DNA from: Gammaproteobacteria bacterium
GTDB lineage: Bacteria; Pseudomonadota; Gammaproteobacteria; HyVt-429
Reading direction: 5' to 3'
Assembly: GCA_022340345.1 (NCBI GenBank)
Contig: JAJDOE010000103.1
Location: 1 to 53,489 of the forward strand
Length of the DNA stretch: 53,489 nt
Shown: positions 581-9,012 of the stretch, in pieces
Layout: every line of letters begins with the position of its first letter
Numbering within the stretch: position 1 is the first letter of the stretch
Program-made: the position numbers and the translations under genes
Notes under the pieces: generated by a model
Database searches by the model: none
The model's input: the letters and a program-made list of their open reading frames with translations, nothing else
What the model was told of the DNA's origin: nothing

Positions 581-3500
581 TTATGCCGGACCTCCGCGGT
601 CCGATGCCTGCATTTCCGCTTCCAGCCGGCGCGGCACGTCCCCCGGTGATCCGGTGTTGCGGGCCAGCAGGTTGTAGGCCACGGGTACCACGAACAGGGT
701 GAAGAAAGTGGCGGCGAGCACGCCGGCGAAGACCACGGTGCCGATGACGACACGGGTTTCGGTTCCCGGCCCGGCGGACAGCAACAGGGGCAGCGCGCCG
801 GCAACCGTGGTGATGCCGGTCATCATGATCGGCCGCAGGCGCACGCCGGAGGCTTCCAGCAGTGCTTCGCGAAATGCCATCCCGCCGTCGCGCAACTGGT
901 TCGCGAACTCCACGATCAGGATCCCGTTTTTGGCGGCAAGCCCGACCAGCATGATCAGGCCGATCTGGCTGTAGATGTTGAGTGTCTGCCCGGACAGGTA
1001 CAGGCCGAACAGGCCGCCAGCGATGGCCAGGGGCACGGTCAGCATTATCACCAACGGATGAATCCAGCTCTCGAACTGGGCCGCCAGCACCAGGAATACC
1101 ACGACCAGGCCCAGCAGGAACACGAATGTCACGGAACCACCGCTTTCGCGATAGTCCCGGGACTGGCCCTTGTAGTCGATTATCGCGGTTCCGGGCAGGT
1201 AATCGCGCACCAGCCCCTCAAGGTGCTCGAGGGCGTCACCCAGCGCCAGCCCGTCGGCCAGGTTCGCTTCCAGGGTAATGGAACGCACCCGGTTGTAGCG
1301 GTTCAGCCGGATGGAGTCGGCGAACTCCTCGAGCCGCACCAGGTTGGACAGGGGAATCAGTTTGTCGCTGCGGGTGGATCGGATATACAGGTTTTCCAGG
1401 TTGGTGGGTGTCCGCTGTACATCGCGCTCGCCCTCCACGATCACGTCATATTCCTCGCCGGCATCAATATAAGTGGTGACCCGCCGCGATCCGAGCATGG
1501 TCTCCAGCGTACGTCCGATACTTTCCACCGTGACGCCGAGCTCGGCGGCGCGGTCGTAGTCGATGTTCACCTGCAGCTGGGGCTTGGTTTCCTTGTAGTC
1601 CCAATCCAGTCCCACCAGGCCCGGATTGTTCTGCTGGATCTTATCCACCAGGATGTCCCGCCACTGCGCGAGTTCCGCATAGGTGCCGCCGCCGATCACG
1701 AACTGGACCGGTTTCTGGATGCGCGCGCCAAAGCCCTGGCGCATCACCGGGAACGCGCGGACTCCCGGCAGGCTGCTGAGGCGGCTGCGTACCTCGTCCA
1801 TAATCGCCCAGGCGGAGCGACGTTTCCCCCATTGCTCCAGTACCACGATGGCGATGCCGGTGTTGAAAATGTCGTAGTTGCCGAAGGCCCGTGGTGCCCG
1901 TACCAGCAGGCGGGTGAATTCACCGCTCTCCACCATGGGCATCAGGCGGCGTTCCACCTCGGTCATGTAGGTGGAGATATACGGGTAGGAGGAGCCCTCC
2001 GGTGCGTTGACCAGAATAAAAAAGGCGCCGCGGTCTTCCTTGGGGGTGTACTCGTCCGGGATGGTCTCCAGCAGGGCCACGGAACCGCCCAGGATGAGCA
2101 GGAACACTACCCCCATGGCCGCCACGTGGCCCAGGGCCCGCTCCAGTATGCGCAGGTAGGTCCGGCGCACCCGGCCGAAGGCCGCGTCCACCAGGTGCAC
2201 AATACGGCCTTCGCGGTTGATCGGCGGCAGAATTTTGGAGGCCAGCATCGGCGACAGGGACAGGGCGACGAAGCTGGAGAAGGCCACCGCCGCCGCCATG
2301 GTCAGGGAAAACTCCGTGAACAGGCGACCCACGTCGCCTTCCAGGAAGGCGATCGGTACAAATACGGATACCAGCACCACGGTGGTGGCGACCACCGCGA
2401 AGCCCACCTGGCGCGCCCCCCGGAAGGCAGCCACCAGGCGAGTCTCGCCGTACTCCTCCATGCGCCGGTGGACGTTTTCGAGGACCACGATGGCGTCGTC
2501 CACCACCAGGCCAATCGCCAGCACCAGGGCAAGGAGAGTAAGGATGTTGATGGAGAAGCCGAGAAGCAGAAGCACCATGGAGGTTGCGATCAGCGAAACC
2601 GGCACGGTGACCGCGGGCACCAGCGTGGCCCGGACGCTGCCCAGGAACAGGTAAATCACGCCGATCACCAGCACGATGGCCATGAACAGGGTCTTGTAGA
2701 CCTCGGTTATGGCGCCCTGCACGAATACCGAAGTGTCATAACTCTGCCGGATTGCCATCCCTTCCGGCAGGGACGGGTTGACGCGTTCCATCTCGGCCTT
2801 GGCCGCCTTGGCTACGGCGATGGTATTGGCGGTGGACTGCTTGATGATGCCGATTCCCACCATGGGCACGCCATTACCGCGGAAAAACAGGCGGTCTTCC
2901 GCGGCGCCTCGTTCCACCCGTGCCACGTCGCCGAGACGTACCAGGTAGCCGTCTGAACCGCGTGCCAGTACCAGCCGGGCGAAGTCGTCGGCGGTGCGAA
3001 AGGTGCGCTTGACGCGGACCGTGAACTGGCGCTCTGCGGAGTCCAGGCTGCCCGCCGGCAGTTCCACATTCTCGTTGCGCAGGGCACGCTCCACATCCGC
3101 AACGGTCAGCGAGCGTGCTGCCAGTTCGCGGCGATCCAGCCACACCCGCATGGCATAGGCCTGCCCGCCGCCAACCCGTACCCGGGCGACGCCGTCGAGC
3201 ACGGAAAAGCGATCCACCAGGTACCGCTGAGCGTAGTCGGTCAGTTCCGGGACACTCATGCGGTCGCTCGCCAGGTTGAGCCACATGATCACGTCTTCGT
3301 TGCTGTCGACTTTCTGGATTTCCGGGGGATCCGCTTCCTCCGGCAGATCGTCCATCACGCCGGCGACACGATCGCGAATGTCGTTGGCGGCCGCATCCAC
3401 GTCCCGGCCGACGTCGAACTCGATGCTGATGGTCGAGCGTCCGTCTTCGCTGGTGGAACTGATGAACTTGATGCCCTCGATGCCCGAGATGCGGTCCTCA

Positions 3501-3700
3501 ATGACCTGCGTGATGCGGGTTTCCACCACGTTCGCGGAGGCACCGGGATAAACCGTATCCACCGACACCACCGGCGGATCGATATTGGGGTATTCCCGAA
3601 GGGACAGGCGGTCGAAAGCCACCAGCCCGAAAGCGATCAGCAACAGGGACATGACCGCGGCCAGCACCGGCCGCTGGACCGAGATATCCGAGAGGATCAT
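581..3700 (-). CDS. RND (HAE1-type) efflux pump inner-membrane subunit
   Basis: The 1039-residue product has the usual length of AcrB/MexB-type proton-driven exporters. It opens with MILSDISVQRPVLAAVMSLL, the first membrane helix, followed by a long periplasmic porter segment. Transmembrane helix 4 carries the paired aspartates at residues 401-402 (LVVDDAIVVLENVH), equivalent to the proton-relay Asp407/Asp408 of AcrB, and the second half has the lysine-containing LAAKNGILIVEFA helix. These support an active proton antiporter. The start codon overlaps the adaptor stop by four bases, so the two genes are translationally coupled. No TolC-like outer-membrane partner is in the window, so one elsewhere is assumed. 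Substrate is unknown; it could be drugs, solvents or detergents. The heavy-metal CusA type is less likely by sequence character. Confidence 0.95.
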   Translation of the reverse strand: MILSDISVQRPVLAAVMSLLLIAFGLVAFDRLSLREYPNIDPPVVSVDTVYPGASANVVETRITQVIEDRISGIEGIKFISSTSEDGRSTISIEFDVGRDVDAAANDIRDRVAGVMDDLPEEADPPEIQKVDSNEDVIMWLNLASDRMSVPELTDYAQRYLVDRFSVLDGVARVRVGGGQAYAMRVWLDRRELAARSLTVADVERALRNENVELPAGSLDSAERQFTVRVKRTFRTADDFARLVLARGSDGYLVRLGDVARVERGAAEDRLFFRGNGVPMVGIGIIKQSTANTIAVAKAAKAEMERVNPSLPEGMAIRQSYDTSVFVQGAITEVYKTLFMAIVLVIGVIYLFLGSVRATLVPAVTVPVSLIATSMVLLLLGFSINILTLLALVLAIGLVVDDAIVVLENVHRRMEEYGETRLVAAFRGARQVGFAVVATTVVLVSVFVPIAFLEGDVGRLFTEFSLTMAAAVAFSSFVALSLSPMLASKILPPINREGRIVHLVDAAFGRVRRTYLRILERALGHVAAMGVVFLLILGGSVALLETIPDEYTPKEDRGAFFILVNAPEGSSYPYISTYMTEVERRLMPMVESGEFTRLLVRAPRAFGNYDIFNTGIAIVVLEQWGKRRSAWAIMDEVRSRLSSLPGVRAFPVMRQGFGARIQKPVQFVIGGGTYAELAQWRDILVDKIQQNNPGLVGLDWDYKETKPQLQVNIDYDRAAELGVTVESIGRTLETMLGSRRVTTYIDAGEEYDVIVEGERDVQRTPTNLENLYIRSTRSDKLIPLSNLVRLEEFADSIRLNRYNRVRSITLEANLADGLALGDALEHLEGLVRDYLPGTAIIDYKGQSRDYRESGGSVTFVFLLGLVVVFLVLAAQFESWIHPLVIMLTVPLAIAGGLFGLYLSGQTLNIYSQIGLIMLVGLAAKNGILIVEFANQLRDGGMAFREALLEASGVRLRPIMMTGITTVAGALPLLLSAGPGTETRVVIGTVVFAGVLAATFFTLFVVPVAYNLLARNTGSPGDVPRRLEAEMQASDRGGPA

Positions 3701-4779
3701 TTCTTGGGGTCGCCCGCGTCCAGACTCTTGAGTATCTCGGCCAGGGGGCGGGTACCGTCATCCACGGCGGCGATGCGAACCTCCTGACCCGGGCGCACCT
3801 TGAGCGTTCCGTGGGTGATGATCTTCTCGCCCGCGACGAGACCGGAGAGGATCTCCACCTTGCCGGGGACGCGAGTGCCGATGCGCACCTCGCGCTCCGC
3901 CACTTTGCTGCCAGCCGCCTCGTCCACCACCAGCACAAACTGTTGCTCACCCCGCGGCACCAGGGCCTCTTCCGGAATCAGGATTGCGCGGCGGGGGTTG
4001 CGCAGGATCTCCACCCGCATGAGCATCCCCGGCCGCAGGCTGCGGTCCGGATTTGGCAGCAGCGCGCGCACGGTTACCGAGCGGGTGACGGGGTCCACCC
4101 GACTGGCGATGGCTTCGATCTTTCCTTCAAATTCCCGTGCGCCGTAGGCGCGCGCGGTGGCGAGTACCCGGAGACCGGGACGCAGAACGTCCAGAAACGT
4201 GCTGGGCACCGTGAAGTCGAGCTTCATGACGCTGTCGTCGTCGAGGGTGGTGACCAGGTCACCGGGGCTGACCAGGGCTCCGATGCTGAGATTGCGCAAT
4301 CCCACTACCCCGGCGAATGGCGCACGCACCAGGCGGTCGGCGAGACGCGACTCGATCCCGGCCAGGCGCGCCCGGGCGGTTTCCCACTCGCGACGGCGCT
4401 GGTCCAGGTTCGAGACGGTGGCATTGCCGTCCGCGACCAGCGCCTTGAGACGCTGGTACTGGCGCCGTGCCTCCTGTTCGGTCGAGCGCGCCTCCTCCAG
4501 CAGGGCGTGCTCCTCGGCGCTGGTCATTTCCGCGAGCACCTGGTTCTCGGGCACCCGGTCGCCGTCGTTGAAGTGAATGGCGGTGATGGTCTCTGTGACG
4601 GACGCCGTCACGTCGACGGACTCGTTGGCGCGCAGGGTGCCCAGGGCCTCTACGCGATCGTCCAGCTCGGCAAGCCCGGCCACGGCCACGATCACGCCCG
4701 GCGGGGGTGGGGCGGCAATCGCGGGGGCGCTGGCGGCAAGCGCGAGCACAAAAGGCAGGGTTCTTGAAAGCAGGTTCAT
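3697..4779 (-). CDS. RND efflux periplasmic adaptor (membrane fusion protein)
   Basis: This 360-residue protein starts with a cleavable signal peptide (MNLLSRTLPFVLALAASAPAIA). It then shows the family order: a first lipoyl half-motif around residues 45-85 (ESVDVTASVTETITAIHFNDGD), a short charged coiled-coil hairpin (about 85-145), the second lipoyl half (RAPFAGVVGLRNLSIGALVSPGD), a beta-barrel region and a C-terminal membrane-proximal domain. It bridges the inner-membrane pump encoded immediately downstream to an outer-membrane channel. The stop overlaps the pump start in an ATGA arrangement. It is predicted to be periplasmic and not lipidated, as there is no lipobox cysteine. No local regulator gene is adjacent on the same strand; the nearest, the TetR gene at 5153, lies beyond the tRNA and reads away. 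Confidence 0.94.
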   Translation of the reverse strand: MNLLSRTLPFVLALAASAPAIAAPPPPGVIVAVAGLAELDDRVEALGTLRANESVDVTASVTETITAIHFNDGDRVPENQVLAEMTSAEEHALLEEARSTEQEARRQYQRLKALVADGNATVSNLDQRRREWETARARLAGIESRLADRLVRAPFAGVVGLRNLSIGALVSPGDLVTTLDDDSVMKLDFTVPSTFLDVLRPGLRVLATARAYGAREFEGKIEAIASRVDPVTRSVTVRALLPNPDRSLRPGMLMRVEILRNPRRAILIPEEALVPRGEQQFVLVVDEAAGSKVAEREVRIGTRVPGKVEILSGLVAGEKIITHGTLKVRPGQEVRIAAVDDGTRPLAEILKSLDAGDPKK

Positions 4780-4917: not shown

Positions 4918-4994
4918 TGGTGGGCCCGCCAGGACTCGAACCTGGGACCAAGGGATTATGAGTCCCCTGCTCTGACCAACTGAGCTACAGGCCC
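4918..4994 (-). tRNA. ileX: tRNA with CAU anticodon, probably tRNA-Ile2 (lysidine type)
   Basis: The minus strand folds as a complete 77-nt cloverleaf. The acceptor arms are GGGCCTG and CGGGCCC with one U-G pair, the D arm contains AGCTCAGTTGGTCAGAGC, the anticodon loop is CTCATAA, the T loop is TTCGAGT, the discriminator base is A and the CCA end is encoded. A CAU anticodon could mean elongator Met, initiator Met or the minor Ile tRNA whose C34 is changed to lysidine by TilS. The anticodon stem and variable region (GGGGA, TCCCT, then TGGTC) follow the pattern I recall for E. coli tRNA-Ile2 better than for elongator Met. The initiator type is excluded by a fully paired acceptor end. Confidence 0.92.
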
Positions 4995-5116
4995 GCGCGG
5001 CCGCATCTTAGCAGTTCACCCTGCTGCCGGCGGAACCGCCATGCACCTCGCCGGCCCTCCATCCCGACCCGCGGGGTTCCGCTCGGCCGGGGGCCGAAAA
5101 AACTTCCCCCAAGGAC

Positions 5117-5145
5117 TAGACAGACCAGTCTGTTCGCACTATAGT
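5117..5145 (+). promoter_or_regulatory. tetR promoter with embedded palindromic operator
   Basis: A near-consensus sigma-70 promoter is visible: -35 TAGACA at 5117-5122, a 17-base spacer, and -10 TATAGT at 5140-5145. The perfect inverted repeat ACAGAC-CA-GTCTGT (5120-5133) overlaps the -35 box and spacer, a classic position for repression by blocking RNA polymerase. An almost identical palindrome precedes the next gene at 5780-5793. The -10 box ends seven bases before the ATG at 5153, so the start point should lie at or next to the start codon and the transcript is probably leaderless. Autoregulation by the encoded TetR protein is inferred. Confidence 0.75.
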
Positions 5146-5152
5146 CCGTACC

Positions 5153-5752
5153 ATGACCAAGCCAGCAGCAACCCGGCCCGCCGGCTCCCCGGAAGAGCGC
5201 ATCCTGACCGTGGCCTCCGAACTCTTCTATCAGCAGGGCTACCGGGCCACCGGCATCAACGAGGTGATCGCCCGCTCCGGGGTGGCCAAGGCTACCTTTT
5301 ATAGCCACTACCGGAGCAAGGAGGAGCTGTGCCTGGCCTACCTGCAGCGCACCGCCGCCGGGGAACTGGCGCAGCTGGACCGGGTGATCGCCGACGCCGG
5401 CGAAAAACCGCTGGAGCGATTGCTGGCGCCGGTGCAATGGCTGCACGGCTGGTCCCGGGCCACCGACTACCGTGGCTGCGCCTTTTTGCACATGGTGGCG
5501 GAAATACCGGATTACCAAAGCCCGTTGCGGCGGGAAGGACGCGAGCTGTACAACGGGATTCGCGAGCGGATCCGGCTCCTGGCGGCTGCCCTGGTGGCCT
5601 CGGACCGCCGCTACGCGCGGCTCGACCCGGAGGCCCTGGCAGCGGATTACATGATCGCGTTCGCCGGCGCCATCGCCTTCGCCGAGCTGTATCACGAGGA
5701 TTGGCCGATCGAGCACGCAACCGCCTTGGTGCGGCGTCTGATCGGCGAATAG
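5153..5752 (+). CDS. TetR-family transcriptional regulator
   Basis: The 199-residue product has the standard TetR build. An N-terminal helix-turn-helix occupies about residues 13-60 (ERILTVASELFYQQGYRATG, then INEVIARSGVAKATFYSHYR), followed by an all-helical ligand and dimer domain. A conserved RGCAFLHM motif at about residue 106 contains a cysteine at a place where some relatives, such as NemR-like regulators, sense electrophiles; that role is only possible here. ATG 5153 is chosen because it begins the typical N-terminus and sits seven bases after a strong -10 box. There is no Shine-Dalgarno sequence, consistent with a leaderless message. The gene lies 69 bases before the diiron protein gene and shares a palindromic operator with it, so it most likely represses itself and that gene. 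Confidence 0.93.
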   Translation: MTKPAATRPAGSPEERILTVASELFYQQGYRATGINEVIARSGVAKATFYSHYRSKEELCLAYLQRTAAGELAQLDRVIADAGEKPLERLLAPVQWLHGWSRATDYRGCAFLHMVAEIPDYQSPLRREGRELYNGIRERIRLLAAALVASDRRYARLDPEALAADYMIAFAGAIAFAELYHEDWPIEHATALVRRLIGE

Positions 5753-5779
5753 GCGGGCATTTTTTTGCCCTGAATCGGG

Positions 5780-5793
5780 ACAGACTGGTCTGT
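5780..5793. promoter_or_regulatory. Second TetR operator, upstream of the diiron gene
   Basis: The perfect palindrome ACAGAC-TG-GTCTGT is the reverse complement of the operator at 5120-5133. The shared block is 16 bases (AGACAGACCAGTCTGT), read on the plus strand at 5118-5133 and on the minus strand at 5780-5795. It lies 29 bases before the ATG at 5822. A weak -35-like GGGACA at 5777-5782 overlaps its left edge as in the tetR promoter, but the -10 region at 5800-5805 is poor. Binding by the adjacent TetR protein is inferred from the duplicated site. Confidence 0.75.
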
Positions 5794-5821
5794 CTTTTCC
5801 ATTTTAGCAGGAGAATGAGTG

Positions 5822-6757
5822 ATGACAGTGTTAGCAAAATTAAACCTGGATACCGACCGGTTCGCCCGCACCATCGCGGCGTCCCGGCGAATCCGCTGGG
5901 AAATCGACCAGGACGTGATCCGTGGCCGGGACTTCGACTACAACCGCAAGTTTCTGCCCGACGGCTTGTCCCGGGTCGATGAAATCCCGTTTCTCAGCAC
6001 CGGGGAAAAGCGTTTCCTGAGCCAGGTGCAGGGGCGTACCTACGCCAACCTCTTCGGTCTGGTGGAGCGTTTCATCTGCGCCAAGATCATCGAGCTCAGC
6101 CAGCAGCACCTGCTGGGTGATCAAATCGCTCTCGAGGCCCTGGTGCGATTCAGCGACGAGGAGCTCAAGCACCAGGAGCTGTTTCGCCGACTGGACGAGA
6201 TGGCGGCTGCCGGCATGCCCGCTGGCTACCGTTTCGTTCCGGATCCGAACGAGGTGGCGCGGGCGGTGCTGGGCAAATCCACCTGGGCAGTGCTGGCGCT
6301 GACCCTGCACATCGAGTTGTTCACCCAGGCCCACTACCGGGAAAGCATTGAGCCCGATGACAACCTGTCGGAACTGTGGAAGGACGTGTTCCTGTTCCAT
6401 TGGAAGGAAGAATCCCAGCACGCAATCATGGACGAGATCGAGTGGGTCAACGAAGACGCGAAGCTCGGCGACGCCGAACGGGAGCAGGCGGTCAGCGACC
6501 TGATCGAACTGGTGGCGGCGGTGGACGGCATCCTGCAGGCCCAGAGCGGCGAGGACGCGCGCTATTTCCTGGAGAACTGCGAGCAATCTTTCAGCGCCGA
6601 AAAGGCCCGGCGTATCGAGCGCGAGATCCTCAAGGCCTATCGCTGGCAGTACATCTTTTCCGGCGTGCAGTTGCCGCGTTTCCAGCAGGTCCTGGCCCGC
6701 GTTACCACCGACGGTCAGCGGGAGCGCATCGGCGCCGCGCTGGCCACCCTCAACTGA
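5822..6757 (+). CDS. Ferritin-like diiron protein, possibly AurF-type oxygenase
   Basis: The 311-residue, largely helical protein has no signal peptide or membrane helix. It carries the carboxylate and histidine pattern of a ferritin-like diiron centre: E82, E114-x2-H117 (EELKH), E165 (in HIELF), and E197-x2-H200 (EESQH). This order E, ExxH, E, ExxH is that of diiron oxygenases and related proteins, and the length best suits AurF-like N-oxygenases, but I do not recognise a close named relative. The substrate is unknown. ATG 5822 is preferred over GTG 5819 because AGGAGA at 5809-5814 is seven bases upstream. A TetR operator precedes it and a small HMA-like gene follows by 25 bases, so the two are probably one transcript. 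Confidence 0.8.
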   Translation: MTVLAKLNLDTDRFARTIAASRRIRWEIDQDVIRGRDFDYNRKFLPDGLSRVDEIPFLSTGEKRFLSQVQGRTYANLFGLVERFICAKIIELSQQHLLGDQIALEALVRFSDEELKHQELFRRLDEMAAAGMPAGYRFVPDPNEVARAVLGKSTWAVLALTLHIELFTQAHYRESIEPDDNLSELWKDVFLFHWKEESQHAIMDEIEWVNEDAKLGDAEREQAVSDLIELVAAVDGILQAQSGEDARYFLENCEQSFSAEKARRIEREILKAYRWQYIFSGVQLPRFQQVLARVTTDGQRERIGAALATLN

Positions 6758-6782
6758 AATCGATCAACTACGGAGAGAAACG

Positions 6783-7019
6783 ATGAAGGAGAAAACCACC
6801 ACGAATATCTTTGTTCACCTGCCGGACGCCAAGCCGGCGGATATGGCCTACCTGGTAGCGGACAGGATCGCCGGTCTGGCTGGCGTGGTCGGCGCTGCCG
6901 TCAACCGCAAGTTGCGACGGCTGATTTCGGTACAGTACGACCCGCGGGAGACCTCGGGAACCGAGATCATCAGCGCGGTTCGCCGCGTCGGGTTCAACGG
7001 TTCCATCGTGGGGCTGTAA
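6783..7019 (+). CDS. Small HMA-fold-like protein without metal-binding cysteines
   Basis: This 78-residue protein has the length and beta-alpha-beta-beta-alpha-beta rhythm of heavy-metal-associated (HMA, ferredoxin-like) domains: strand NIFVHLP, helix with AYLVADRIAGLAG, strand GAAVNRKLRRLISVQYD, and helix TEIISAVRRVGF before a final strand. It has no cysteine at all, so the CxxC metal site of copper chaperones is absent. GTEIISAVRRVGFNG matches the second-helix consensus of the fold. It follows the diiron gene by 25 bases with GGAGAG upstream (6772-6777), and a strong terminator lies about 80 bases downstream. It may be a protein-protein or small-molecule partner of the diiron enzyme; this is inference from context only. 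Confidence 0.75.
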   Translation: MKEKTTTNIFVHLPDAKPADMAYLVADRIAGLAGVVGAAVNRKLRRLISVQYDPRETSGTEIISAVRRVGFNGSIVGL

Positions 7020-7100
7020 GGAATGCCGGCACACCCGGCACCGCGGGCACGGAGGCCCGCAGTGCCGCCCGGCCTCTGGCCCGGCAATCGCAAGCAAGGA

Positions 7101-7133
7101 AAAAGCCGCTGGCAGTTACCAGCGGCTTTTTTT
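7101..7133. terminator. Rho-independent terminator after the HMA-like gene
   Basis: A 12-bp stem AAAAGCCGCTGG / CCAGCGGCTTTT (7101-7112 and 7119-7130) with loop CAGTTA is followed by further T residues, giving seven T in all. It ends the tetR-diiron-HMA unit. Because the left arm begins with a run of A, it can also work in the opposite direction for the convergent rpoD operon. Confidence 0.92.
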
Positions 7134-7170
7134 GCCCGGTTAATTCGGAAATCTCTTCGCCTGAATTTGA

Positions 7171-7200
7171 AATTATCTGCACAGGTATGCGCAGATAATT
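7171..7200. repeat. Inverted repeat downstream of rpoD
   Basis: Perfect 10-bp arms AATTATCTGC and GCAGATAATT flank a 10-base loop. The element lies 28-57 bases beyond the rpoD stop codon. On the minus strand it is followed by TTTCAAATTC, so it may act as a weak terminator or a 3' end stabiliser of the rpoD message. The arms are AT-rich, unlike the surroundings. Confidence 0.6.
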
Positions 7201-7227
7201 GCGGTGAGAAAGCCTCTTTCTCTCTGT

Positions 7228-9012
<1,785 letters not shown>

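Follow-up and report, generated by a model that had tools for sequence, protein, structure and literature searches.

Enzymes of the AurF family are best known for the nitro, nitroso and azoxy groups of natural products. The N-oxygenases AurF, CmlI, AzoC and HamC work in natural-product pathways (PMC6783550, PMC5878181), and DnfA, the AurF-family enzyme of Dirammox, turns hydroxylamine into N2 (PMC9478400). One gene described as AurF-like is down-regulated in Burkholderia terrae with a fungus (PMC5209427). Among the repressors of the TetR family, AltR needs a single cysteine for its release by thiosulfinates (PMC13178969).

The locus described here is part of a 53,489-nucleotide stretch of DNA (the "window") from a Gammaproteobacteria bacterium. 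The unit at 5117-7133 is probably a compact detoxification cassette that was acquired horizontally. The reading as a whole, a repressor-controlled, acquired detoxification cassette with an AurF-like diiron enzyme, is considered slightly better than an even prospect. Other loci are referred to by their L numbers.

Organization of the module

The module has the following features.

5117-5145, plus strand: tetR promoter with -35 TAGACA (5117-5122), a 17-bp spacer and -10 TATAGT (5140-5145)
5120-5133, no strand: putative operator 1, ACAGACCAGTCTGT, within the -35 and spacer of the tetR promoter
5153-5752, plus strand: TetR-family repressor gene (TetR_N and TetR_C_13, Cys109 in an RGC motif)
5755-5770, plus strand: short hairpin, U-rich in its loop, immediately 3' of the tetR stop and before operator 2
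5779-5794, no strand: putative operator 2, core ACAGACTGGTCTGT at 5780-5793, upstream of the diiron gene
5822-6757, plus strand: diiron protein gene, 311 aa, divergent AurF family
6783-7019, plus strand: HMA-fold protein gene, 78 aa, no cysteine
about 7098-7133, plus strand: intrinsic terminator with a 15-bp stem

The three genes have the same orientation and are separated by 69 nt (tetR to diiron) and 25 nt (diiron to HMA). The list of open reading frames starts the diiron gene at the GTG at 5819, whereas the ATG at 5822 suits the Shine-Dalgarno AGGAG better. All the elements of a preliminary description of this unit, namely three genes, two palindromes and a terminator, were found where it had placed them. 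That the terminator closes the module was borne out by folding, which gives the 15-bp stem with an energy of -23.2 kcal/mol and a z of -3.9. A simple pattern scan for terminators did not list 7098-7133, probably because the A-tract pairs with the T-run.

The module fills the gap between rpoD and tRNA-Met (4918-7231). In G657 (L116), a genome of the same family, a gene-free interval of about 250 bp separates rpoD from tRNA-Met. The gap being empty in G657 and filled in the window suggests that the module was inserted at a tRNA-adjacent site, although this is the one empty site seen and loss in G657 is the alternative. Of the 274 genomes of the class, only two contain the diiron gene.

An RND efflux pump with an HlyD-type adaptor is encoded on the minus strand at 584-4779, next to tRNA-Met. 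Control of this pump by the TetR protein was considered and rejected, as the pump reads away behind tRNA-Met and has no operator copy.

The repressor and its putative operators

As had been noted before, each palindrome is the reverse complement of the other, and the match proved to be without a mismatch. Allowing one mismatch at most, the 14-bp palindrome occurs only twice in the 2.79-Mb genome (183 contigs), and the reversed pattern, used as a control, occurs nowhere in it. Operator 1 overlaps the -35 and spacer of a sigma-70-type promoter having 10 of 12 matches.

L005, L006 and L010, of which the last is from the cultured Motiliproteus sp. SC1-56, have the same layout, with a TetR gene just upstream of the diiron gene. 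All three carry ACAGACNNGTCTGT both at the tetR promoter and between tetR and the diiron gene. This motif occurs six times in the 649,244 bases of the 80 loci with diiron homologues, and all six copies are at those two places of L005, L006 and L010. The -35 and the spacing of the tetR promoter are alike in these three loci, and the -10 is 7 nt from the tetR ATG in all three and in the window, as read from the aligned sequence. Because the ATG lies this close to the -10, where the start of transcription is expected, the tetR mRNA is probably leaderless. The promoter of the diiron gene is harder to make out. The hairpin 3' of the tetR stop, which is not a normal terminator, is also kept in the window and its three nearest relatives.

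L081 (Nitrospirota) has the identical layout with another pair of palindromes (TGACTAATTAGTTA-like and TAACTAAGTGGTTAGTTA). The retention of the layout with different palindromes argues for selection on the layout itself. The motif of the window is also present at the promoters of two TetR genes of this subfamily that sit away from any diiron gene, as ACAGACGGGTCTGT in L140, beside a DJ-1/PfpI gene, and as TAGACAGACCTGTCTA in L142, beside DUF1348, and thus goes with the TetR protein. The earlier proposal of a TetR protein with its own operators at both promoters is strengthened by the footprint in the three relatives and by these two further copies, and it is highly probable from sequence comparison that this TetR protein pairs with the two putative operators. 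The predicted arrangement, in which the promoter of the TetR_C_13 gene contains one operator and the other precedes the diiron-HMA operon, is conserved. No paper on the operator sequence was found in the literature.

Both domains of the repressor, TetR_N and TetR_C_13, were matched, and among its significant sequence relatives is NemR (4YZE). Cys109 is invariant in five TetR proteins, and the GC of its RGC motif is also present in 3G7R, 3QBM and 3JSJ.

The diiron protein

The preliminary description had listed the ligands E, ExxH, E and ExxH. All of these are present, together with a seventh ligand, H193, that was absent from that list and is the third histidine of the pattern E, ExxH, E, H-x3-E-x2-H. 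The seven residues (E82, E114, H117, E165, H193, E197 and H200) are invariant in 46 homologues. Their spacing is 32-3-48-28-4-3, compared with 35-3-56-27-4-3 in DnfA, as calculated from its published ligand numbers (PMC9478400). A relative of dnfA in L118 carries the same ligand numbers as DnfA. The L118 locus, which comes from a different genome of the phylum, has a gene cluster resembling dnfABC (Dirammox).

The AurF Pfam model (PF11583) matches 35 of the 46 homologues at E values up to 0.1, the best being 6.7e-8, and does not match the window protein itself. Alignment of profiles with hhalign against an AurF-family set led by L118 gave an E value of 0.0015 with a low program probability (16.8%). 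In this alignment ExxH, E165 and HxxxExxH are paired column for column with the DnfA site, E82 being the exception. The AF2 model of the protein (pLDDT 94.9) is a ferritin-like helical bundle. Upon searching the PDB with Foldseek, AurF and CmlI were found among the best matches, with TM scores up to 0.65 and a weak E value (1.6e-3), and oxygenases and RNR-like oxidases were ranked first. Sequence searches of the PDB gave no match to the protein, either as a single sequence or as a profile, and Pfam searches of the window proteins gave nothing useful for the diiron or the HMA-like protein.

The previously claimed kinship with AurF and CmlI is thus supported by ligands, profile matches of the homologues and fold search. 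An AurF fold with a diiron site is close to certain, and we conclude that the protein is a divergent AurF-family member with a subfamily of its own. The chemistry of AurF and CmlI is nevertheless not transferable to it, given an identity of only about 14%, the weak Foldseek E value and the low hhalign probability. The desiccation protein DtpC (PMC13232832) was also considered and was rejected, being a heme-oxygenase-like diiron protein with another fold.

Distribution and neighbours of the diiron gene

In a collection of 84,980 species-representative genomes, 331 confirmed stretches code for relatives of the diiron protein, and the analysis was continued with the best 80 of them. Wherever they are annotated, the family members are called "hypothetical protein". 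In a tree built from 81 diiron proteins, the window, L005, L006 and L010 form one clade (support 100/98), in which TetR is a neighbour in four of four loci and HMA in three of four, L010 lacking it. Over the whole family, in counts that are approximate (a home-made scoring gene caller, loci ending at contig ends, the 80 closest relatives), the diiron gene has a TetR neighbour in 7 of 81 loci, with four changes on the tree, and an HMA neighbour in 7 of 82, with six changes spread over the tree. The suggestion that the three genes form one system therefore stands for the nearest clade and not for the family, most of whose members lack TetR and HMA neighbours and have a regulator of another kind nearby.

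A regulator of some kind lies within 2.5 kb of the diiron gene in 63 of 81 loci, although nearness alone is no proof of regulation. At least six kinds of regulator are represented (two-component, AraC with a cupin, an alpha/beta hydrolase with LuxR, CadC-like, BTAD and TetR), and the kind changes at least 27 times on the diiron tree. The diiron enzyme is the constant part and the regulator the variable part.

A gene for OsmC, a family of organic hydroperoxide and stress proteins, is situated directly 3' of the diiron gene in L013, L031, L057, L090 and L134, which belong to Alphaproteobacteria and Kuenenia. OsmC was recognized by sequence resemblance in L013 and L090 and by Pfam or annotation in L031 and L134. 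The pair occupies 3980-5527 in L013, from the anammox bacterium Kuenenia, and 4007-5548 in L134, on plasmid pLA3 of Novosphingobium pentaromativorans. Neighbours of the OsmC, MAPEG and methyltransferase kinds belong to other lineages and are missing from the clade of the window. No paper linking AurF with OsmC was found in the literature.

Two further associations were observed. In L033, L039, L041 and L079 (Thermodesulfobacteriota) a gene for an apparently exported DsrE-like protein comes after the diiron gene. A DUF1348 (SnoaL-like) gene is near members of the TetR subfamily or diiron loci in L142, L073, L076, L077 and L068.

The HMA-like protein

The AF2 model of the third protein (pLDDT 87.8) has the order strand-helix-strand-strand-helix-strand, and its best Foldseek matches are ATP7B and MerP with a TM score of 0.8, confirming the HMA fold without cysteines that had been recognized from the sequence. 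A profile of seven HMA-like members also finds the HMA domains of P-type ATPases, and NCBIfam gives weak matches to UxxU and CopZ. No CxxC metal site was found; the window protein has no cysteine and none is conserved in the seven members. Nor was a conserved histidine or other usual metal-binding residue found in the protein and its relatives. The lack of a conserved cysteine makes a classical metal role unlikely.

The HMA-like gene adjoins the diiron gene in seven loci, on its 5' side in four (L007, L014, L008 and L027) and on its 3' side in three. In L007 and L014 a sensor kinase precedes the HMA-like/diiron pair and a methyltransferase follows it.

It is conceivable, and is put forward tentatively, that the HMA-like protein is in some lineages a non-metal-binding helper of the diiron enzyme, acting as a partner or an assembly subunit. 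An alternative is that the TetR-diiron pair is real and the HMA-like gene an unrelated hitch-hiker, as its absence from L010 and from most homologous loci would allow. However, its presence on both sides of the diiron gene in seven loci, with six changes, suggests repeated functional pairing, and the hitch-hiker is considered rather unlikely.

Proposed function

In the proposed mechanism, a TetR dimer would bind both operators and hold the levels of both transcripts down. The repressor would be released by a thiol-reactive or aromatic compound, perhaps through Cys109, which is likened to the critical cysteines of NemR and AltR. Once made, the diiron enzyme would oxidise a toxic small molecule, perhaps one that contains nitrogen, with O2 or peroxide at its AurF-type site of seven ligands. 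The kinship with NemR, the invariant Cys109, the precedent of AltR and the OsmC neighbours favour a defence that is induced to deal with some reactive small molecule. Against detoxification, the family also has members in anaerobes (Thermodesulfobacteriota, Kuenenia), for which catalysis with O2 is less evident, and the upstream neighbours of the homologues, though stress-like, are diverse. The chances of a detoxification role appear evenly balanced, and N-oxygenation by the diiron enzyme is possible rather than probable. A more specific version would make it a new kind of inducible stress enzyme, an AurF-type diiron oxygenase serving detoxification instead of biosynthesis, whose regulator was frequently swapped in evolution and which in some lineages acquired an HMA domain devoid of cysteines as a non-metal effector subunit; this version is somewhat doubtful.

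The substrate might instead be hydroxylamine or another reactive nitrogen species, removed in a DnfA-like manner upon induction by nitrogen stress. The ligand set is identical to that of DnfA (PMC9478400), the profile alignment pairs the two sites, and family members adjoin OsmC in the anammox bacterium Kuenenia. However, the identity to DnfA is very low, and no DnfB reductase or DnfC amidotransferase was recognized beside the homologues examined, whereas L118 has neighbours resembling both. Hydroxylamine removal is accordingly improbable. A biosynthetic N-oxygenase, making a nitroso, nitro or azoxy metabolite under TetR as the pathway regulator, is a little less probable still. It has the precedent of the AurF family in natural-product pathways, with which the seven-ligand site and fold family are shared, but the module is flanked by tRNA-Met and rpoD with no biosynthetic genes adjoining, and its homologues adjoin regulators and general stress or transport genes, no biosynthetic family being frequent among the scanned neighbours. 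Metal handling, with the diiron protein as a ferroxidase or iron store, the HMA-like protein as a metal carrier and TetR as a metal sensor, would agree with the HMA fold, the ferritin-like bundle and weak EncFtn-like Pfam matches in 10 of 46 members, but is very improbable, as conserved residues of the kinds that usually bind metal, cysteine and histidine among them, are missing from the HMA-like proteins, the ligands of the diiron site include the third histidine of AurF and CmlI and are not a ferroxidase set, and oxygenases and RNR-like oxidases top the fold search.

Comparison with known systems

A widespread, unannotated AurF-family branch with interchangeable regulators, sometimes accompanied by OsmC, points to a different job from that of the known enzymes, probably protection. 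The version with TetR is the most accessible one, since its two putative operators and predicted leaderless promoter suit a simple inducer screen, and an inducer found in this way would hint at what the whole diiron branch acts on. Reuse of a fold could be tested clearly with the HMA partner that lacks cysteines.

The fold and the site of three histidines and four glutamates are shared with the arylamine N-oxygenases AurF and CmlI (PF11583; PDB 2JCD, 3CHU, 5HYH), with near-identical spacing. In contrast to these, the window protein, about 14% identical, forms its own subfamily without a match to the Pfam model, and its gene has no biosynthetic cluster, the family lying beside diverse regulators. 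The ligand set and family are also common to the hydroxylamine oxidase DnfA (PMC9478400; L118), but dnfA sits with dnfB and dnfC, whereas the neighbours in the window are TetR and HMA. With the repressors NemR and AltR, the window TetR has in common a cysteine in the regulatory domain and, as predicted, an inverted-repeat operator at its own promoter and at the target genes (PMC13178969), although the operator sequence differs and the similarity is only moderate. The fold of the HMA-like protein is that of the HMA domains of MerP, CopZ and the ATPases (TM 0.8 to MerP and ATP7B), from which it differs in lacking CxxC and in having its gene tied to a diiron protein.
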